Below are positions 31,882 to 46,521 of a stretch of 48,098 nt of DNA, piece after piece; position 1 is the first letter of the stretch, and every line of letters begins with the position of its first letter. Source of the DNA: a virus. The stretch spans positions 1 to 48,098 of the IMG/VR virus record IMGVR_UViG_3300027801_000040; one strand, given 5' to 3'. The notes below the pieces were generated by a model. That model was not told the origin of the DNA and made no database searches. It worked only from the letters and a program-made list of their open reading frames with translations. The position numbers and the translations under genes are program-made.

Positions 31882-34800
31882 TTATACCTCGATTGCTTGC
31901 CTAATGGCTTTAAATGTCATGTTGTCTGTCGATGCTGGGGTAACTCTCAATCTTAAGTTACTGCCACTTATATCTGCATCAAAAGTAGCCTGTGCTCCAT
32001 TATCAAAAATAGATGCGTACTGCGTTAGATAAGCTGTAGTTCCGTCATGGAAGCACAAAATTTCAATTGCTTGATAGTCTCCATCAGTAGTATTAGTTAC
32101 TGATACTAACCATTTACAAGTTCTGTAAGTGGCTTTAGCAACAGTATCAAGTGTTTGCTGTCCTGTAGAGTTACTAGTAAGACTGGCTACGTTTAAGTTT
32201 CCAATGTCTTGTATGTTTAGATCTCCGCTTACTTTTGCAGTATCAGTAGTTCCGTTGCCTAAGGTTACGTCCCCTTGTGTGCTAATATTACCCGTAAAGA
32301 TAACGTTGCCCGTCATGGTTTTTCCGCTTAGAGCTGCAGTATGTAATTGAAGAGCTTGTACAGCTGAACTAGCTATTTCATTACTGCCAATATTATTAGC
32401 GGCGATTTTTGCGTTTGTGATAGCATTAGCGGCTATTTTTGCAGTAGTAACCTGTAAGGCTCCTACGTGGATAGTATCTATACTACCTGTAGCTATTTCT
32501 GCACTATCAACTGCGTTAGCAGCAATTAGATCAGATGTAACTGTTCCGCTTGGTATTTGTACTGATGTAATAGCATTTTGAGCAATTTCACTACTGCCTA
32601 CTTGGTTTGCTCCTATCTTGGCTGATGTTACAGCATTAGCGGCTATCTTTCCAGCGATAACTGCGTCAGTAGCTAAAGCAGTAGAGTCTACTACTCCTGT
32701 CCCGAAGTCGGTAGACTGGCTAATAGCGCCTGCGGCTATCTTGCCTGATATTACAGAATCAGCTGCTAGTTTTGCTGATGTAACTTGTAAAGCTCCTAGA
32801 TGTATAGTATCTATACTACCAGAAACTAATTCAGAGGAGTCTATTGAGTTAGCGGCTAAATGCGAAGCATCTAAAGAACCAGCTACAATACTCTCTGCTG
32901 TTACGGAATTGGTAGCAATTTTTGCACTAGAAATAGCATTATTTGCAATATCTCCTGTGGCGATTGTACCATCTAAAATTTGGTCTGTAGTAACCTGCCC
33001 ATCATCAATGTGTCTAGTAAGAATACTATTAGAAGCTATCTTAGTGCCGTCTATAGCATTAGCTGCTACCTCTGACGTTCCTATAGCGTTCGTTTGTATC
33101 TTAGCTGCTGTTACAGAGTTACCTGCTAATTGTGCAGTGTTAACCTGTCCATCATCAATATGTTTTGTTAAGATAGAGTTCTGAGCAATAGATGCACTAA
33201 CAATTGCGTTTGTTGCAATTTCTCGTGCAGTAATGTTATTCTCTGCTATCATTGCTGATTCTACAGCGTTTGCTTGAATTGTTGCGCTACCTGTTACTGC
33301 TGCTGAGCCATTGAAAGAGGCTGATGTCCAAACGACATCTCCAGTCATTCCAATTGTTCTTCCAGTAGATAGTATAGTAGCTTCGGAAGCTGTTGCTGCG
33401 TTACCTGAAGTATCTTGATTACCTGCGGCATTAACACCTGGTAAGTTGATATCTGCTGAACCGTTAAAAGATACTCCGCCAATATTTCTAGCAGAAGCTA
33501 AAGTTGTCGCTGTATCTGCGTTACCTGTGACTGCACCTGTAACGTTACCTTCTATGTTGGCTACTAATGTAGCTACTGTATATCCTGCAGCACTTAAGTT
33601 AACTGTAGTAGTTGGTTGTGTTTGTAAATCTTTAAACAGTCTCCATTTTCCAGAAGAATCTGCGTCTCTAAAGAAACCTCCATAAAGATCTGCTGAGCCA
33701 GTAGTATCATATAATCCATAGATACCTATGTCCACTGCGTCAGAGCTATTGTTTCCAGTAGCTAACGATATGAGAGAGTCTCCAGAAGTGATTGTAGTAG
33801 CGGAAGCTATGAAACTAGAGCCTGATACTGTAACATCTCCTGAAAAGATAACATTACCGGACATGGTTTGCCCGCTTAATGCATCTGATTTAAGTTCTGC
33901 GGCAGATACAGCGTTTGCTGCTATGCTATCGGCATTGACTGCATCGGTTGCAATTTTTGCATTTGTTACGTTGTCATCTGCTATTTTAGCTGTTGTGACT
34001 TGTAGGGCGCCGATATGGATAGTATCTATACTACCAGTAATAAGTTCCGCGCTATCCACTGAGTTAGCACCTAATTGAGTGCTAGTAATACTTCCGTCTG
34101 CAATCTTGGCGGCAGTAACTGCGTTATCTGCTATCTTTGCTGTTGTTACGTTAGCGTCTAGTATTTTTGCTGTTATGACTGCATCAGTAGCTATATGAAT
34201 AGCATCAATAGAACCACTTACTATTTCTGCAGTATCTACTGTGTTAGCTGCTAGATGTCTTGATAAAATTTGGTCAGTAGCAATTTTTGCTGAAGTAACA
34301 TTGTTAGCTGCTATTTTTGCTGTTGTTACATTAGCATTTAGTATTTTTGCGGTAGTTATATTAGCATCGGCTATTTTAGCAGTTGTCACATTCGCATCGG
34401 TAAGATGCGAAGTGACGATCTGAGCATCATCAATGTGTCGGGTAAGTATCGAGTTCTGCGCGATTTTTGTGCCATCTATGGCGTTGTCTGCTATATTTCC
34501 TGTTGCAATAGTGTTCGCGGCAATATCTCCCGATACAATAGTACCGTCTGTGATATGGTCTGAAGCTATTACTCCGGAGGGTAACTTAGCTGCTGTAATA
34601 GCGTTATCTGCTATTTTAGTTGTAATAACTGAATCTGTAGATAAATGCGAGCTATCTATGCTTCCATCTACTAGTTCTGCTGAATCTACAGAGTTTGTAG
34701 ATAATTGGACTGCTGTAATACTGCCGTCTGCTATATGGTGTGCTGTAACTTGGTTTTCTGCTATCTGATTAGTAGTAACTGCGTTTGCCGCCAGTTTTCC

Positions 34801-35517
34801 AGTAGTAACATTTAAATCCGCTAGTAAGTCTGTTACGACTGTGCCTGCTGGTATTTGTGTAGCTGTGATAGAGTTATTCGCTATCTCTGACGTGCCTACT
34901 ACATTAGCCGCTATTTTTGCAGCTGTTACTGAGTTGTTTGCTAGTTTTGCTTCTGTGACTTGTAAGTTAGCAATATGAGAAGTGTCAATACTACCATCTA
35001 CTAATTCAGCGCTATCTACCGAGTCTGACGCTAACAAGTCTGCTGTGACTGTTCCGCTTGGTATTTGTACTGCTGTTACTGAGTTATTTGCTAGTGCTTG
35101 TGTTGCTATAGAGTTAGTAGCAATTTTTACTGCGGTAATAGCATTATCTGCTATTTTTGGTGTAGTTACTGAGTCAGTTGCTAATTTAGCCGATGTTACT
35201 TGAATTGCTCCAATATGAATAGTGTCTATACTACCCGATACTAGTTCTGAAGAATCTACAGAGTTAGCGGCTATTGCTGCTGCGTCTACTGAGTTATCTC
35301 CTACTGATGTTACTGCTGCGCCCTGTAATTGGGCTGCTCCAACCGCGTTAGTTGCGATTTCGGCTGTGTCTACCGCGTTTGCTGCAATTTCTGATGAGCC
35401 AACTGCGTTCCCAGCGATCTCACTCGCAGTAATAGAGTTACTTACAATTTCTGTAGTCCCTACTGCGTTTGCCTCTAGCGTGGAGACTAAGTGATTTTCT
35501 TTTCCTATGAGTGGCAT
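31882..35517 (-). CDS. Large tail fibre protein with I-A-x-N/S-x-V-T repeats
   Basis: A 1211-aa fibre protein. Two long tracts (about residues 1-540 and 740-1065) are tandem motifs like A-V-T-A-A-K-I-A-D-N and S-V-D-S-A-E-L-V-S-G-S-I-D, the repeat found in many marine phage fibres and expected to form a trimeric beta shaft. Between them is a globular part (T-M-S-G-N-V-I-F-S-G-D-V to W-R-L-F-K-D-L and S-F-N-G-S-A-D-I-N-L-P). The final 140 residues form a distinct tip beginning T-M-T-G-N-V-I-F-T-G and ending I-R-Q-A-I-E-V. The start is an ATG three bases from the upstream stop. It probably binds the host surface. Confidence 0.8.
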   Translation of the reverse strand: MPLIGKENHLVSTLEANAVGTTEIVSNSITASEIAGNAVGSSEIAANAVDTAEIATNAVGAAQLQGAAVTSVGDNSVDAAAIAANSVDSSELVSGSIDTIHIGAIQVTSAKLATDSVTTPKIADNAITAVKIATNSIATQALANNSVTAVQIPSGTVTADLLASDSVDSAELVDGSIDTSHIANLQVTEAKLANNSVTAAKIAANVVGTSEIANNSITATQIPAGTVVTDLLADLNVTTGKLAANAVTTNQIAENQVTAHHIADGSITAVQLSTNSVDSAELVDGSIDSSHLSTDSVITTKIADNAITAAKLPSGVIASDHITDGTIVSGDIAANTIATGNIADNAIDGTKIAQNSILTRHIDDAQIVTSHLTDANVTTAKIADANITTAKILNANVTTAKIAANNVTSAKIATDQILSRHLAANTVDTAEIVSGSIDAIHIATDAVITAKILDANVTTAKIADNAVTAAKIADGSITSTQLGANSVDSAELITGSIDTIHIGALQVTTAKIADDNVTNAKIATDAVNADSIAANAVSAAELKSDALSGQTMSGNVIFSGDVTVSGSSFIASATTITSGDSLISLATGNNSSDAVDIGIYGLYDTTGSADLYGGFFRDADSSGKWRLFKDLQTQPTTTVNLSAAGYTVATLVANIEGNVTGAVTGNADTATTLASARNIGGVSFNGSADINLPGVNAAGNQDTSGNAATASEATILSTGRTIGMTGDVVWTSASFNGSAAVTGSATIQANAVESAMIAENNITAREIATNAIVSASIAQNSILTKHIDDGQVNTAQLAGNSVTAAKIQTNAIGTSEVAANAIDGTKIASNSILTRHIDDGQVTTDQILDGTIATGDIANNAISSAKIATNSVTAESIVAGSLDASHLAANSIDSSELVSGSIDTIHLGALQVTSAKLAADSVISGKIAAGAISQSTDFGTGVVDSTALATDAVIAGKIAANAVTSAKIGANQVGSSEIAQNAITSVQIPSGTVTSDLIAANAVDSAEIATGSIDTIHVGALQVTTAKIAANAITNAKIAANNIGSNEIASSAVQALQLHTAALSGKTMTGNVIFTGNISTQGDVTLGNGTTDTAKVSGDLNIQDIGNLNVASLTSNSTGQQTLDTVAKATYRTCKWLVSVTNTTDGDYQAIEILCFHDGTTAYLTQYASIFDNGAQATFDADISGSNLRLRVTPASTDNMTFKAIRQAIEV

Positions 35518-38523: not shown

Positions 38524-39162
38524 TTAAGAGTATGACCAAGTTACTGAAGCCCAACCTGAGTCTGCTGCTTTTAAAGTTCTATATTGTGCTATTGTAGCTT
38601 CGTTCCATTCTAGGTCTTGGGCTTCTAAGTGAAAGTCGCCAGGACTAGTTGTAGTTGTGCTATCTATATCGAAGGATAGATTATCCCATTTTGTTCTTGT
38701 TGAAGATACCGCAGTATTGTGTCCAGCATTGCCAGGAGCTTGAAACCAGCAGTTTATATGAGTAAGGTTCCATGTTTCCATCATACCTAAACTAAGAATA
38801 TTGTGATCGGAGAAGTACCCATTACCTCTATGGGTGGGGTCAATTATTCCGAATCTTACATTCATCTTACCTGCGCTTGCTCCAAATACCCAAGTACTAA
38901 CTCCAACCCTAGTGCCGTCTTTTACAGAGACATAAGTTGCTAGTTGCAACTGTGGGTTTTCATAAGTATGAATATTAGTTTCATTAAATTTATCATTCTC
39001 CATTAAAAATCTACTAAATCTATTTAATCTTGCTATATAAGTCGTGCTACCCTGAGGGAAGTCTTTCCAACATCTCATAAAGAAGTCTTGGTCTGCCGCA
39101 GTCTCTTCGAGAGGTCTAAATACCCACCCGTTACTTGCTGTACACACTTTTGTTGCTGCCAT
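38524..39162 (-). CDS. GNAT-like acetyltransferase fold protein
   Basis: A 212-aa protein with a GNAT-type acetyl-CoA motif: I-D-P-T-H-R-G-N-G-Y-F-S around residues 106-117 after a beta strand (M-N-V-R-F-G-I). The N-terminal strand G-W-V-F-R-P-L-E-E resembles other GNAT starts. The C-terminal third is unusual and Thr/Trp-rich. It lies between the tail tip gene J and the fibres, with its stop just before the fibre promoter gap. It could acetylate a virion or host component, or be a virion protein that reuses the fold. Confidence 0.6.
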   Translation of the reverse strand: MAATKVCTASNGWVFRPLEETAADQDFFMRCWKDFPQGSTTYIARLNRFSRFLMENDKFNETNIHTYENPQLQLATYVSVKDGTRVGVSTWVFGASAGKMNVRFGIIDPTHRGNGYFSDHNILSLGMMETWNLTHINCWFQAPGNAGHNTAVSSTRTKWDNLSFDIDSTTTTSPGDFHLEAQDLEWNEATIAQYRTLKAADSGWASVTWSYS

Positions 39163-39171
39163 TGTTTTCTC

Positions 39172-42100
39172 CTATTCTTTGCTATTGTGAACTAGTATAC
39201 CGTCCACGTAATACGTATGAGTATCATCAACTGTAATATTCCATACTGTTTGTTTTTTATCTATTCTGTTAATTATGTCTACAGAGCCATTAGTAGTCAT
39301 ATCACCTATCTCTATCTGTTTAGGTTCTAGTTCAATTTTATGACCAAATAACTGATGTTCTCTATAGTACTCAGCTGGATCAATACAAGACCAGCCTTTA
39401 TCTATAATCCATACAGGGTGTCCTGCTGTAATTTTTAAATCATTTAAGTAGTACCAGTAGTCTACTTCAAAAGACTCTCTCTTTGTAATGGTACCGCCTT
39501 TTACTTCTTGTCCTGGTTCTATGGTTTCTATCTTTAATCCGAGTCCGTCTTCAAGTTCAATAACAGTACCTGGTAAGAAACAGCCACCACCGCCACCGCC
39601 ACCACCACCAGAAGAACTTGTATCAATTATATAGCAACTCATAGTTATAATAAATCCACTTGCAATATGCTTTACATATACAGTCTTAAATGTCGCAGCT
39701 GATCCGAAGGTGTTATCAGTACCTCCTGTATTTGTTCCCCAGTCCCAGCCTGATGTTGCAGTAGTACCTGAAGCACCTGCTGAAAGGGCAAAACCACTTA
39801 CGTTACCCCCAGTTCGAGACCATGTATAAGTCTGCGAAGCACTAGTAACTGCATCGAGAGGGTGAGTAGCGAGTAACTGACCAGTAATATTATTTGAAGT
39901 ATAGTTAGTTCCATCTGTAGTAGAAAAGGAAGCTGCAGTAGCACCTGCGCTTACTCCCATAGAAGTCCAACCAAAGTTACTTGTGATTGTACCCCCAACC
40001 CCAGTAATTAAACTTGCTGTTATAGGTACACCTGCCCCTACTCTAGTTCTGAATGAAGAGAAGTCAGTAATAGCTGCTTGAATAAATGTTTGGTTAACAT
40101 TAGAATTAGCATAGCCATCTACATCTCCTCCTAAGTTTGATATGTCAAAGTCACTGGCAGCATATTCAGTATTACTATTTATAGACTGTAGTATCCAACT
40201 TGTACCATTACTTATATATAACTGATTTGGTGTTACTCCCGTTCTTGTGTATTGAGAAGCCAGAGGATTTGGACTTGGAGTAGTACTGTTATTTGGTACA
40301 GCAGTACCTGTTGTAAATGTAGGTAATACTATTTGACTGTTTACGTAATCATTGTTAGTTAATCCTAGTATTCCTAATCCTGATGAACTTAAATTTAAAT
40401 TAAATTCGTTATCGAATATGCCTGGTACAGTAAAGTCGAAGTCTCCTAAATAAAATTGTGGGGCTGTCCATGTAATAGTAGAACTATTTGCGGGGGTTGT
40501 CCCATTTATATACCAGATACTCTTTCCAACAGCAGCCGTTGGAATAGTAGCTATGTACGATCCTGGGGTCGTGTCTGTTCCTGGGCTCGGCGTAGCAGGT
40601 GGATTATACCCACTCTGTAAGTAGTACGCTACGTGTGAAGAAGCTCCACTAGGCCCTGTTGGACCTGGTCCCCCATCTGTTCTTTGAGCATAAATAACTG
40701 GAGCAGTCCAATTAGCAGTTTGCGGAGAATTTCCATCACTAGTAAATATTCTGGTAATTACATAAACCTTGTCAGTATTCGATGAAAGAGTAGGAACATC
40801 ATAGTCCCAACCAGACTCTATAGCGTTTTCCCCAACGGTAGCTTTTGGATCAGCAAAAGAACCAAATGCATTATTAGATAAACTAGAATCATTTTTCTTA
40901 TATAGATTAACTTGTCTTGTTCCGACACCTACTACAGTAACACCATCTACCCTTTTTGCGTAAAGCGCAGCAGCGGGCCAAGCTGATTCGTGAGGAGAGT
41001 TCCCATCACTAGTAAATATACGACTCATAGCGTATACTTCATGACCATTTGCAGTCATACTTGGAACTGCATAGTTCCAATCTGTATTTCCAGCTCTTGG
41101 GTCTGCAAAACTTCCATTACCTGCAACACGAGTAGAACTATTTAATCTATAAAGTGTTGGGTATCTTGAGTTTACTGCTGGAGCTCCATCATCTCCAAAC
41201 CTTCCCACAACTGTACTACCAGACCAATTAGCCGATACAGCGTCTCCTACTGAAGGATTTCCAACTACATTTCTTTGAGCTCTCCAGAGAGCTTTATTAG
41301 TTGTTGTTACAGAGGGGGCTCCATCATACCAAGGGCTTTGAGGTTGATCGAATCCCCAAGAATTACTTGGAGCACTCGGACTAGTACTTGAATTAGCGGT
41401 TATTGCAAAGATATATTCAGTGCCTGCTCCATCGTCTCCGTCTCTTGCTGTTATAGGACTAGGTGTGCTCCAAGTAAAGTTACCCGTATTATTAGTTCTT
41501 GTACCGAAAGATACATAGGTTTTATAACCACTGGCGGGAGTTGAGGGAGTTGCTGTCCAGCTTCCGGGAGTTGCATCGGCAGATCCTGTTGGGGGCGCAT
41601 TGGGGGGCGAAGTAGCATTTAAGTATGCTATCGTCAAGCCGTCTCCGGCACTCCCGTCCTCACCAGTTTTTGACTTGGTTAATGATTGTACTTTTGTAAA
41701 CGAAAATGCAACATTTTTAGACGTTTTACCTGAAATAGTATAGACTAGCGAATAGTTGTCTGTATCAGTTTCAGGAGTATGATTTGCAACTACTGCAATC
41801 CTCGATGGAACACTTCCTGAGGAAGTAACGCCACCCTTTGACAAGCCTGTAGGGCTGTTTAGAACAACTTTCCATTTACCTCTAGCTGTACCTGTTCCAT
41901 CATAATCTAATCGATCACCTCCTTCATATACCTCTACGTTTGTCCCACTTCCTGTTATATCTGAAACTATCCCCGTCTTACTTGCTGGATATACATGGGC
42001 TTCATTTGTTAAATAAGGAGTTATTAGACCCTCCATCTCAGTTAGAATTTCTAAAGTAGTGAAGTCAGCTGCTCCTCCGTCTGCGGAAGCTAGTGTATAA

Positions 42101-45100
42101 GTGACGGTCATACCGTCTACTGCGTTTGCCACAGTTACTCTACAGCTTGGGTCTGTATGTGTATTTACAATATTTGTTAAGGTACCTGCGCTTGTAGACC
42201 AGACACCGTTTGCTGTTGTATTTGATGTTGCTGCTGAAATCGTTATAAACGCGGGATTAGTAATTAGACTATCGCCACCTCCAGGTCCATGACCACTTTC
42301 ACCACCTACATGACCCTCTGCAAAAGAAAACTGCACAAAGAATGGGTTACTTGGAGTAACAACAACTATTTTAGCATTTTCTCCTGCAGTTCCTTGTGCT
42401 GTTTTGGTAAACGATAATATCTTATCTGCTATAAGTAGACTTGCTCTACCTCTGTCAAATAGTCTTAGTGTTGCTGTAGCAGAAGTATGAGCGTCCATGT
42501 CGCCATTGCCAACTGTAACTACACCAGTACTGGAGATTTCTATATCGCTTTCGTTATCAAAGCCAGTTCTCGCTTGTAGGGAGATTCCAAAAGTATTGAT
42601 TGCTGTGCCACTTGCGGCAAAAGCGTATGCTTGTGTACCTTTCTGAACTGTAAAGCTACATCCAAATGCACTTTCGTTAGTTACTTCTCCATTTAAGTTT
42701 GCATCAAATGTAAAATTCTCATTACTTCCATGAACTTCAAAAGCAGATTCTCCCTGAGAGGCGCCAAACTTCTGTAGAGTATAGTTTCCACTTCCGTCTT
42801 TTACAACTTTGCCCATGATAGTATCATTATTAAAGTCTGCTAAGAAATTAGGTTTAGAAAATGCTTGATTACCACTATCAATAAGAGTGAAACGGGTTGG
42901 TTGATAAGTGTGTAGCACAGAATCGCTGTCAAAACGTTTTACCCTGTGATAGTAATCAGTTGAATTTTTCGTGAACTTGAATACATTATCTACCGCAAGT
43001 TCACCATCGAAGTTAGTAGAATCCAGTCCAGTCCACTTCTTGGGAGTTGCGCTAGTACTTGCTGTAAGAGTGCCTGTTGCAGTTGCAAAAACTGAAGCAC
43101 CAGGTACATAAAACTGGTCAGATACTTCATCATGCGAAATAGCTATAAAGGCACTTGCAGTATGGTCAAAGTATACATAACCTGTATTTGCACCATTATT
43201 ATCTGTGTTACTTCCGGTTAAACCAGTAAAGTCTAGCTGAGCTTGATTAGTAACTGCGTGTTCATTCTTTCCATCATTGTGGAATAAATTTGAAGGACTA
43301 AAGGTTACTTTCCCACTATCTAGTGAGAAGTCTCCACTAACATTACCTATCTTATTTATTGTCCAGTTAGCGTTACCTACTGTGCCTTCGCTCGGGCCTA
43401 CTGCTCTGTTAAAGTCAATAGTTATTACGCCGCTGTCTGTATAAGGACTTCTTTTTCCATTAAGGTTTATTGTATAAACTCTAAAGTAGTACTGGCCACT
43501 AACTACAGCTCCGAATTCATTGCCCATTAAGTCTATAGATGTGTTAGGAGTACTTCCTACTCCTGTCCATTTTTCGTTATCTGTAGAGTACTCAACTTGG
43601 TACTCTCTAAGTGAGGAGTATAAGCTACCATCACTATTAGTAGCGGGATCCCATTCAATACTTATTAAGTTAATGTTACTGTCGTCAACAAGCCCAGCAC
43701 GAATAATAGGTTCTGCATCTATGTTTGTTACAGCAGGAACGTCTTTGAAGCTGTCTGGTAAGTATATTGTTCTGTATTCTGTTAGAGCTTCGTTTTTATC
43801 AACTGCATCGAATTTTGATGCGTTGTACTCTAATCCAGTAACCTCAAACATATTCCTATCTGTTTCTGCTATAGACATGACTCGGAATAGCTTTGCTTCT
43901 AGTTTTGTTTTACCTGTAGCTTGTGCCGCTCTTGAAATTACCCATATTGACTCGTGTGTAGGTGCTACGCTAAAAGCGGATGCAACTGTAAGTGTTTTTC
44001 CACTGTTACTTACGCTTTGTAATGTTTCTGTTTCTGTGAATGTAAAAGGCGTCCACTGTACAAATACTAGGTCGCCACTATCATCTTGTTGTCTAGCAGC
44101 AGCTTCTTCAGTAGTTATACTAGAAAGATGTGCCCCTCTTACATACGCTGTGCTACCAATAGTAGCAGTATCTTGTGCGAGTATAGCTTTATAGCCTACA
44201 AAACTACAAGTTACTCTGTAGTCTCCAGCAGCATACCCTGACTCTACTGAGGTGTTTCCAAAAGAAGTTGGTTTTCTATCTATATTTAATGCACTAGTGG
44301 AACTGCTACTAGATACTCTTCCGCCCCATGATTTTCCTTCTTTATGTTGATCAAGTACCTGTACTATATCTCCGGGACGTAAGAAAACTGCGTTAACTGA
44401 AGTAGTAAACGCTACAGTATTAGTATTCAAACTATTTGTAAGTAGCTTCCATTTACCTAGTCTTCTTGCTTGTCCTCTAGAAGTACAACCAAATGCTGTT
44501 GTTTCATCTGGCTTTAAAAATTCTTCGTCTTTCTGTAGGTTTTCTTCTAACTCTACAATTTCTGTTCTACTTCTATAATAGTCTTGGGGGTTATTCCAAT
44601 TAACCATAATAGAATTTGTTCTTGTTTTATTTGCAGTTCCTTCGTACTTAAATTCACCATTTATTACGTTAGCGTTAGTAAACTGATACACAGGATCTTT
44701 TTCTGAGTCTTGGACTAAGTAAGCTTCTCCATTCAACCAGTAAGTCATTCCTCTGAATATACTTGTTACATCATTCAGTACTTTGTATGCTTCTTGTTTT
44801 CCACTAATAACTAAGTTTGCACTGAATCTTGGTTCATGCTGGCCGGACGCTCCGCTATCTAAATAGTTAGCATCCTCTGTACAATGTATGCTTAGTAAAT
44901 CTGCTGCTCCAACACCTGCTGGTACTAGCTCATCACAATATCTACCAATTTGAAATAACTCCCACTTGTTTACCTGTGCTTGTGTTAGGTAGTTTCCTAG
45001 TCCATAAATTTTATTAGTAACTAAGTCATTAAATACCCATGCCGGGTTATTACACCAAGATTGGTAGAATGTTCCGTCCCAGTCTTGTTCTAGTGTTGTA

Positions 45101-46521
45101 GGTTTTTCTGTACTAGCGTTTCTTCTATAGTTGGCAGGTATAAATACTTGCTCTGAGGAGGTTACTGTTCCGCTATCTTCGTCTTGATTGGTAATAGTAC
45201 CTGTCACAGCACTTGATTGTGCGGCTACATTTCTAAGATATAGTGTATTACTTACTTTTTTCTCTACTAGTCCACCACTGAACATAGCTGCGGTTTTTGT
45301 GCCACCACATACTAATCCAGATAAAGTTTTGTACTCTCCAGTAGTTTCGTTAAAAGGTTTATTAAGAGTATATGTAAATGCTGTAGTTGTTGTTGCTGTA
45401 GCAGCAAATGTACCTTCCCAGAATTCTTCATCAGTAGAAGAAGAAGTTGCAATAGTTACTTTAAAAGTTTCCCCTACTGCTACTCCATGAGCGGCTACGC
45501 TGGCAGTGGCTGTATAACCTTCTTCTGGCGTTCCTGCGGCATTTAATGCGCTTACACTTAGGGTTTGTCCTATTACATCACCAACTGCAAAAGCACTTGC
45601 GTTACTTAATACTAGTTTACGACCGTTATAGTCTAGTGGATAATGGTTGGAGGGAATTTGAATTAACTTACCATCTATCTCATATCCTCTTGCTGGAACG
45701 CTACTAAATGCTTCTGCATCTATAACTCCACCTACGTATGCAGTATAAGGGTACTCTAATTTATCAGCAATTGAAGCTTCTATAGTATCTACAAAGATAG
45801 CATTTTGTACTTCTACAGAATCGGAACTCTGAGGACTAGAAGTTAGTTTCTTTACTTTAACTGACCAATCATTTATGGTAGAAGTGGTCTTAATAGTTTC
45901 AATATTGAATCCGAAAGTATGTGCGTATTTACCACTTACTTTACCGTTAAACCCAGTATCAAACATTTGTTTAGTATGGTGAACGCCTGAATTATCTACC
46001 CAATTAAAATCAATAGTAAAGTATACAACAGTAGTTTTTATATCCCCTTTGTTATCTCCCTTTTTTGTAATCGCAGACATACCTGTAGTAGATATAGTAA
46101 CTTTTATATAGTCAGTCTCTCTCTTTTCAAATGTACCACTTGAAATAGTATGATACTGGGGTTCATTTTCTAGAAGTTCTGCGGAGCCTACGCTTTGCAT
46201 AAAGGAGGCGCTAGGATACTCTGCGAAGAAGTCTGCATCAACTACCTGTGTTGCTTCTCCGTTTTTCGTAATTACAGTAAAGTTATTAAAGTTAGTAGCA
46301 GAGCCTACACGTCCTGTAGACTGATCAACGTTTCTTAAACGTACTTCATCGACAAGAATAGACGCATCGCCATATACCAATCCCTTAATTGGACCTTCTG
46401 CGATAGCATCAATAAAAGCAGCACTTTGCCTTGCAAACATATTATCATCTGCTTCAAATGTAGATCCGCCTCCGCCTTTTCCTTTGGCTCCTCGAATTGT
46501 TATTAAGTGTTGTTTCTTCAT
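39172..46521 (-). CDS. J: Tail tip / host specificity protein J with C-terminal Hint domain
   Basis: A 2449-aa lambda gpJ homologue, about twice gpJ length (1132 aa). The N-terminus has A-F-I-D-A-I-A-E-G-P-I-K-G-L of the tail tip hub. The phage tail domain with T-S-I-F-R-G-M-T-Y-W is near residue 590, and an N-S-I-M-V-N-W segment near 640. An FnIII-like domain (Y-Q-V-E-Y-S, then Y-Y-F-R-V-Y-T-I-N) lies near 960-1030. Several Ig-like and Gly/Pro-rich segments follow, including a duplicated F-T-S-D-G-N-S-P module near 1850 and 1940. Nine glycines precede a 136-aa Hint domain at the C-terminus. It binds the receptor at the tail end. The start overlaps gene I by four bases. Confidence 0.9.
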   Translation of the reverse strand: MKKQHLITIRGAKGKGGGGSTFEADDNMFARQSAAFIDAIAEGPIKGLVYGDASILVDEVRLRNVDQSTGRVGSATNFNNFTVITKNGEATQVVDADFFAEYPSASFMQSVGSAELLENEPQYHTISSGTFEKRETDYIKVTISTTGMSAITKKGDNKGDIKTTVVYFTIDFNWVDNSGVHHTKQMFDTGFNGKVSGKYAHTFGFNIETIKTTSTINDWSVKVKKLTSSPQSSDSVEVQNAIFVDTIEASIADKLEYPYTAYVGGVIDAEAFSSVPARGYEIDGKLIQIPSNHYPLDYNGRKLVLSNASAFAVGDVIGQTLSVSALNAAGTPEEGYTATASVAAHGVAVGETFKVTIATSSSTDEEFWEGTFAATATTTTAFTYTLNKPFNETTGEYKTLSGLVCGGTKTAAMFSGGLVEKKVSNTLYLRNVAAQSSAVTGTITNQDEDSGTVTSSEQVFIPANYRRNASTEKPTTLEQDWDGTFYQSWCNNPAWVFNDLVTNKIYGLGNYLTQAQVNKWELFQIGRYCDELVPAGVGAADLLSIHCTEDANYLDSGASGQHEPRFSANLVISGKQEAYKVLNDVTSIFRGMTYWLNGEAYLVQDSEKDPVYQFTNANVINGEFKYEGTANKTRTNSIMVNWNNPQDYYRSRTEIVELEENLQKDEEFLKPDETTAFGCTSRGQARRLGKWKLLTNSLNTNTVAFTTSVNAVFLRPGDIVQVLDQHKEGKSWGGRVSSSSSTSALNIDRKPTSFGNTSVESGYAAGDYRVTCSFVGYKAILAQDTATIGSTAYVRGAHLSSITTEEAAARQQDDSGDLVFVQWTPFTFTETETLQSVSNSGKTLTVASAFSVAPTHESIWVISRAAQATGKTKLEAKLFRVMSIAETDRNMFEVTGLEYNASKFDAVDKNEALTEYRTIYLPDSFKDVPAVTNIDAEPIIRAGLVDDSNINLISIEWDPATNSDGSLYSSLREYQVEYSTDNEKWTGVGSTPNTSIDLMGNEFGAVVSGQYYFRVYTINLNGKRSPYTDSGVITIDFNRAVGPSEGTVGNANWTINKIGNVSGDFSLDSGKVTFSPSNLFHNDGKNEHAVTNQAQLDFTGLTGSNTDNNGANTGYVYFDHTASAFIAISHDEVSDQFYVPGASVFATATGTLTASTSATPKKWTGLDSTNFDGELAVDNVFKFTKNSTDYYHRVKRFDSDSVLHTYQPTRFTLIDSGNQAFSKPNFLADFNNDTIMGKVVKDGSGNYTLQKFGASQGESAFEVHGSNENFTFDANLNGEVTNESAFGCSFTVQKGTQAYAFAASGTAINTFGISLQARTGFDNESDIEISSTGVVTVGNGDMDAHTSATATLRLFDRGRASLLIADKILSFTKTAQGTAGENAKIVVVTPSNPFFVQFSFAEGHVGGESGHGPGGGDSLITNPAFITISAATSNTTANGVWSTSAGTLTNIVNTHTDPSCRVTVANAVDGMTVTYTLASADGGAADFTTLEILTEMEGLITPYLTNEAHVYPASKTGIVSDITGSGTNVEVYEGGDRLDYDGTGTARGKWKVVLNSPTGLSKGGVTSSGSVPSRIAVVANHTPETDTDNYSLVYTISGKTSKNVAFSFTKVQSLTKSKTGEDGSAGDGLTIAYLNATSPPNAPPTGSADATPGSWTATPSTPASGYKTYVSFGTRTNNTGNFTWSTPSPITARDGDDGAGTEYIFAITANSSTSPSAPSNSWGFDQPQSPWYDGAPSVTTTNKALWRAQRNVVGNPSVGDAVSANWSGSTVVGRFGDDGAPAVNSRYPTLYRLNSSTRVAGNGSFADPRAGNTDWNYAVPSMTANGHEVYAMSRIFTSDGNSPHESAWPAAALYAKRVDGVTVVGVGTRQVNLYKKNDSSLSNNAFGSFADPKATVGENAIESGWDYDVPTLSSNTDKVYVITRIFTSDGNSPQTANWTAPVIYAQRTDGGPGPTGPSGASSHVAYYLQSGYNPPATPSPGTDTTPGSYIATIPTAAVGKSIWYINGTTPANSSTITWTAPQFYLGDFDFTVPGIFDNEFNLNLSSSGLGILGLTNNDYVNSQIVLPTFTTGTAVPNNSTTPSPNPLASQYTRTGVTPNQLYISNGTSWILQSINSNTEYAASDFDISNLGGDVDGYANSNVNQTFIQAAITDFSSFRTRVGAGVPITASLITGVGGTITSNFGWTSMGVSAGATAASFSTTDGTNYTSNNITGQLLATHPLDAVTSASQTYTWSRTGGNVSGFALSAGASGTTATSGWDWGTNTGGTDNTFGSAATFKTVYVKHIASGFIITMSCYIIDTSSSGGGGGGGGGCFLPGTVIELEDGLGLKIETIEPGQEVKGGTITKRESFEVDYWYYLNDLKITAGHPVWIIDKGWSCIDPAEYYREHQLFGHKIELEPKQIEIGDMTTNGSVDIINRIDKKQTVWNITVDDTHTYYVDGILVHNSKE
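39175..39582 (-). other. Hint (intein/hedgehog-type) autoprocessing domain at the J C-terminus
   Basis: Residues 2314-2449 of J. Block A is C2314-F-L-P-G-T with E-D-G after it. Block B is L-K-I-T-A-G-H-P-V-W-I (T-x2-H). Blocks F and G are V-W-N-I-T-V-D-D-T-H-T-Y-Y-V-D-G-I-L-V-H-N-S. All catalytic residues of a class 1 Hint domain are present (Cys1, block B Thr and His, penultimate His, terminal Asn, +1 Ser). Only S-K-E follow the Asn. Confidence 0.9.

Follow-up and report, generated by a model that had tools for sequence, protein, structure and literature searches.

A Hint domain at the C-terminal end of a phage tail-tip protein J, and the exchange of J endings among close relatives

Introduction

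The closest described relatives of the domain studied here are the type A BIL domains (2LWY; 6Y75), which span about 135-150 residues, carry no endonuclease, and combine the Hint fold with Cys1, a T-x-x-H motif, a V-[YW]-N...H-T-Y stretch and a terminal His-Asn. Those with the terminal His-Asn mainly cleave and sometimes splice, and in splicing the amine set free on the C-side attacks the thioester on the N-side (PMC4031507, PMC7664689). Mini-inteins (Ssp DnaB 1MI8, gp41-1 6QAZ, Pho RadA) present the same fold and reaction motifs. The Hedgehog C-terminal autoprocessing domain (1AT0) is also a C-terminal Hint that could pass the protein on its N-terminal side to a nucleophile, and a further named relative is Vint (PF14623; Tetrahymena 8R2C). 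Among phage tail proteins, the Peptidase_S74 intramolecular chaperone is a self-removing C-terminal domain of unrelated fold and chemistry. In the open-licence literature, as covered by an incomplete library, inteins were found for phage terminase or replication genes and no paper was found that deals with Hint domains at the C-terminus of tail proteins.

The Hint domain described here ends the tail-tip protein J of a phage, whereas type A BILs, which give its best profile and structure matches and share its size, motifs and lack of endonuclease, reside in secreted bacterial or ciliate proteins. It also differs from them in having three residues after it, a polyglycine run before it, and Ser at the +1 position in its own clade (Gly in sister loci). 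Unlike mini-inteins, it has no useful C-extein and no empty-site homologue for the J analysed here; unlike the Hedgehog domain, which is a weaker structural match, it keeps His-Asn and comes without a sterol-recognition region; and unlike Vint, it keeps the His-Asn of block G.

Results

Tail-tip protein J and its terminal domain

The window, i.e. the whole viral contig of 48,098 bases analysed here, comes from a phage record derived from environmental DNA, and all features given below lie on its minus strand. The gene at 39172-46521 encodes a protein of 2449 residues, which matches phrog_31 (central tail fiber J) with E=2.6e-136 in the profile search and PF13550 with E=2e-22 in Pfam, together with a partial match to lambda_TipJ NF049904. 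Directly upstream are tail genes of phrog_30 (minor tail) and phrog_32 (tail assembly), the same order as in lambda-like phages, where tail genes of these types are followed by J. The sequence-only reading of this DNA had named the product tail tip protein J, and both profile matches and neighbourhood agree with it. Elsewhere in the window (31882-35517) lies a fibre-like protein of 1211 residues with many short repeats (AANAVDTAEIA.. type), which matches several tail-fibre PHROGs.

The last 136 residues of J (2314-2449; 39175-39582) read CFLPGT...ITAGHPVW...VWNITVDDTHTYYVDGILVHNSKE-stop, and are preceded by nine glycines (2305-2313; 39583-39609), a run of which only about 2e-6 would be expected from composition. 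Across the window clade the run has 6 to 13 Gly, a length variation expected for a flexible linker. The hallmarks of the Hint superfamily, Cys/Ser1 and the T-x-x-H of block B, are present and conserved in relatives, as Cys1 (C2314; 39580-39582), the predicted nucleophile of the N-S acyl shift, and as T-A-G-H (T2365, H2368; 39418-39429). Blocks F and G (VWNITVDDTHTYYVDGILVHN; 39184-39246) contain V-W-N2428...H2435-T-Y, with Asn at position 4 of block F where inteins usually have Asp, and the terminal H2445-N2446 of type A BILs, N2446 being the predicted cyclizing Asn. Only S-K-E (39175-39183) stands between this Asn and the stop. Cys1, block B, block F, the terminal H-N and S-K-E behind Gly9 had all been pointed out from the letters alone, and coordinates and residues proved exact.

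Profile searches bear out the earlier assignment to a Hint or intein-like domain. The TIGR01443 intein_Cterm model scores the window copy at 27.2 bits, above its cut-off of 15.6, and is matched by 11 of the 13 family members at E<=0.01, while PF07591 PT-HINT and PF14890 Intein_splicing are matched by all 13 at E<=0.01 (best 4e-9), the window copy itself scoring under the Pfam gathering score for both. The family profile covers the whole of the C. thermocellum BIL domain 2LWY with E=9e-8, and this match and 6TMM/6Y75 (E=1e-4) outrank inteins. A Pfam match to AXH (ataxin), below its cut-off, was taken as incidental. A polymorphic-toxin PT-HINT (PF07591) was rejected, given 22.3 bits against a gathering score of 27.7, 3 residues downstream and no toxin domain.

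Predicted structure and conservation

Structure prediction had been proposed as a check on the Hint assignment. The AlphaFold2 model of the domain (mean pLDDT 85.7, pTM 0.81) adopts the horseshoe beta Hint fold and is nearest to the BIL domains, with Tetrahymena BUBL1 BIL2 6Y75 as the best Foldseek match (E=8e-9, TM 0.73), followed by 2LWY and then by mini-inteins. E-values against BILs and inteins range from 8e-9 to 1e-5, and the Hedgehog C-terminal domain 1AT0 ranks lower (E=3e-3). Judged from motifs, profiles and model, J ends in a real Hint domain with complete active-site motifs.

The family compared has 13 members, whose identity with the window copy is 39-82%. Invariant in all of them are the block B His (together with its Thr and Gly), the block F His and the terminal His-Asn, as well as the stretches V-W-N-I, H-T-Y and L-V-H-N, and Cys1 is kept in all 12 members whose sequence reaches the N-terminus of the domain. 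With respect to relatives, pN is 0.11-0.19 for the Hint (0.23 for L012) and 0.30-0.33 for the preceding Ig-like domain, i.e. about 2-3 times lower for the Hint. The dN/dS ratios are rough, as dS is near saturation; the Hint has 0.11-0.16 among closer relatives and 0.24-0.29 in L014 and L012, and the domain preceding it has 0.30-0.41. These sequence comparisons indicate that the Hint is under stronger purifying selection than that domain.

The C-terminal flank

The residue following the terminal Asn distinguishes the window clade from its sisters. The clade has Ser (S-K-[EDQN]; Ser2447 in the window copy), thus the +1 Cys, Ser or Thr of inteins is present here, whereas the sister loci L013, L014, L015, L074 and L078 have Gly, within flanks reading G-A-K-E, G-G-K-E.. 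or G7, and so share with type A BILs the lack of a nucleophilic +1 residue. The sequences retrieved contain 50 distinct C-terminal Hints with His-Asn; their tails measure 2-18 residues and show no fixed +1 residue (Cys, Ser or Thr in 18 of the 50), so that conservation concerns the scissile machinery and not a downstream extein. No J homologue shows joined flanks, the Hint-free ones ending in FKFNGE or otherwise, without an S-K-E tail, and no endonuclease was found in the J Hint domain. The early suggestion that splicing would join nothing useful is in keeping with these tails and Hint-free endings.

A mobile intein was rejected given the three-residue C-extein, the flanks never joined in homologues and the lack of an endonuclease, and a Hedgehog-type sterol domain given the presence of Asn2446, the three residues after the Hint and the lack of a sterol-recognition region.

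Exchange of the J ending and the following gene

J homologues were collected through the N-terminal region; most are contig fragments, and several loci overlap on the same contigs. The core is common to all of them, and the endings are of five kinds. The first is the Hint described above behind a Gly-rich linker (window, L004, L006, L008-L010, L012 and L014). The second (L022, L079-L083) is a shorter Hint, hereafter Hint2, which has lost the terminal His-Asn (...ITNDHPIL...TVGGKY) and whose closest named relative is Vint. The third is a tandem of Hint and Hint2 with Gly7 in between (L015/L050, L074, L078). In the fourth (L027, L028, L029, L039, L100-L104), free of Hint, J has a conserved F[ST]FKFNGE end and a gene for a RimK-type ATP-grasp ligase (PF08443 at 110.9 bits, cut-off 21) starts no more than 3 nt past the stop, an arrangement seen in 7 of the 7 contigs found with that ligase; two GNAT-like genes come after the ligase where the contig extends far enough. 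The fifth has neither Hint nor RimK (L051, L055). One further J homologue, L061, carries Peptidase_S74 at its C-terminal end (32.3 bits, cut-off 22), in the position of the Hint.

The gene after the window J (38524-39162) encodes a GNAT-family protein of 212 residues, whose homologues come immediately after J in each of the 13 loci tested that have a Hint-bearing J; the GNAT start codon often overlaps the J stop. The homologue in L015 matches PF00583 with 27.8 bits (cut-off 20.7). Compared with the GNATs of the RimK version, the GNAT family of the Hint versions gave no match.

In the tree of J cores the kinds of ending are interleaved. L039 (RimK) and L041 (Hint) have cores 96% identical and are sisters with full support, and the window (Hint) and L022 (Hint2), with cores 90% identical, are likewise sisters. 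Such interleaving among near-identical cores indicates that the last J module and the following gene are swapped between close relatives. RimK extends the C-terminus of ribosomal protein S6, and for this reason the C-terminal Glu of the Hint-free J is a candidate substrate of the ligase. As the modules exchanged are of self-processing or protein-modifying types, their swapping suggests that the J end is chemically processed during virus assembly.

Hint domains in other proteins

A scan of viral contigs for a Gly4-Cys-Hint start, a short pattern of the kind that misses distant relatives, gave at least 65 distinct Hint domains in at least 63 loci. The 65 among the matches listed comprise 34 C-terminal domains with His-Asn and 2-18 residues after it, 16 internal ones and 15 without the Asn. 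Gly at -1 in these is there by selection and the association with polyglycine is only partly independent, since the scan demanded four Gly before Cys; no such demand was made when the window family was found. The large Hint2 family of phage proteins (L084-L098, L106-L181; C[LI]..M...ITNDHP...V[HS]G.Y), gathered through its ITNDHP motif, retains Cys1 in all 59 distinct copies (59 of 59), whereas none of them (0 of 59) has the Asn; the domain is always the last part of its protein, and some members lie next to scaffold-like genes. Its model shows a compact Hint fold (pLDDT 95.7) with borderline Foldseek matches to BILs, gp41-1 and Vint (E about 1e-3).

Among the matches listed, seven other J proteins (L216, L234, L236, L241, L244, L255, L281) carry a Hint inside an N-terminal polyglycine (..GAGGGGG, Hint, GGGGKGG..), with +1 mostly Gly or Lys; excision of the Hint and joining of its two sides would give back the usual polyglycine start of a J protein. 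A Hint between polyglycines is found as well, among the matches listed, in a tail-assembly protein (phrog_32/phrog_4554; L199:8812-9378, L211:4010-4576, L233, L274). Another C-terminal Hint-like family (L210, L237, L243, L250, L263, L265) has the polyglycine-Cys1 start and an end ..DKNVNILNA in which the usual block G is absent, and a Thermoplasmata MAG contig (L182:1982-3361) encodes three tandem Hints, each with a C-F-x-x-G-T start and an H-N end.

Against an incomplete collection of named phages, the window copy as query gave one weak match and the Asn-less Hints none, while the L015 copy reached Hints of cultured phages (Erwinia Yoloswag gp103, Alexandra gp112, Dickeya AD1 gp108, Alcaligenes Afa-NA1, Salmonella Sen-NF). 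Like the J Hint, these are terminal domains of a tail or fibre protein in which Cys1, the block B His and the terminal His-Asn are intact, and they have tails of 10-12 residues; unlike it, they end a collagen-like tail fibre protein, have Thr or Met at +1 and show no long polyglycine run. The genome scan yielded only two remote matches, in a bacterial and an archaeal MAG, and no prophage.

Discussion

What is new here is that J homologues, with cores up to 96% identical, swap their ending together with the next gene: Hint with GNAT, Asn-less Hint with GNAT, the tandem with GNAT, or FKFNGE with RimK. As to what the Hint does, the reading that we favour, at middling confidence, is that of an autoprocessing type A BIL-like domain acting as a removable C-terminal maturation cap, which would leave J with a polyglycine end. 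Its support lies in the fold, the motifs, purifying selection on the domain and its place at the terminus, after polyglycine. By analogy with type A BILs, the Gly2313-Cys2314 bond would become a thioester after folding, and cyclization of Asn2446 would release the Ser-Lys-Glu tail. Most likely the thioester would then be hydrolysed, so that the Hint of about 15 kDa would leave and mature J would end in polyglycine; the main alternative outcome would be that another amine takes over the J C-terminus. The cap would be placed where L061 has its self-cleaving Peptidase_S74 chaperone, which gives a removable C-terminal domain on J a precedent, though of a different kind. Three observations count against the cap: Ser at +1 in the window clade makes canonical splicing chemistry possible too, the Asn-less C-terminal phage Hints, a sister group, indicate that N-side chemistry or a non-cleaving role can suffice, and block F has Asn instead of Asp at position 4.

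It is possible, though we consider it rather improbable, that the outcome is ligation: a nucleophile would attack the Cys2314 thioester and the polyglycine J end would become covalently attached, as in Hedgehog-type transfer, to a protein (a further J subunit or a tail protein), a small molecule or a group on the host surface. The Asn-less Hints of the second ending and of many other phage proteins fit this well, as they keep Cys1 and block B, which leaves only N-side chemistry open to them, and in a relative whose J has no Hint but a core 96% identical, the gene after J is that of a RimK-type ligase. The Hint-specific GNAT family after J could assist, a link to the Hint chemistry that we infer from gene association; GNAT genes, however, belong to the RimK cassette as well as to the Hint one and may have nothing to do with the chemistry, and the J Hint has no sterol-recognition region.

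A broader proposal, which we put forward tentatively and regard as unlikely, is that the exposed J C-terminus is a dedicated site of covalent modification, at which interchangeable cassettes (Hint thioester with GNAT, or F[ST]FKFNGE with RimK and two GNATs) attach something. Hint, through a thioester, and RimK, through an acyl phosphate, would then be two chemical routes to the tail-tip end.

We find it improbable that the Hint stays in the virion uncleaved and serves as a folded cap or in receptor binding, its active site being conserved for stability or slow chemistry. Receptor-binding modules vary in the C-terminal part of J, which is where the Hint lies, and exchange of modules is typical of receptor-binding regions; both are consistent with such a role, but the invariant set of Cys1, His and His-Asn and the short tails would be unexpected for a mere binding domain.

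A mini-intein inserted near the J end, splicing out or decaying, is very unlikely: His-Asn-Ser with Cys1 would permit canonical splicing, and Hints between two polyglycines (the tandems of L015, L074 and L078; the N-terminal polyglycine of other J proteins) do give a splice-like context, but the flank evidence given above speaks against it, and a degenerate remnant was rejected on the rough dN/dS among closer relatives, which argues against decay, so in functional terms the J Hint is no intein.

Because Hint and RimK behave as allelic alternatives, mass spectrometry could show directly what becomes of the J end. Should polyglycine sites support splicing that needs no nucleophile at +1, this would be of use for protein ligation. 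To our knowledge, tail-tip maturation by a built-in Hint is not known for lambda-like J proteins. If the maturation proposed here is true, it would give a natural role to many unexplained Hints that end phage structural proteins, in a setting accessible in cultured phages, and would add a new step of assembly or host attachment for lambda-like J proteins.
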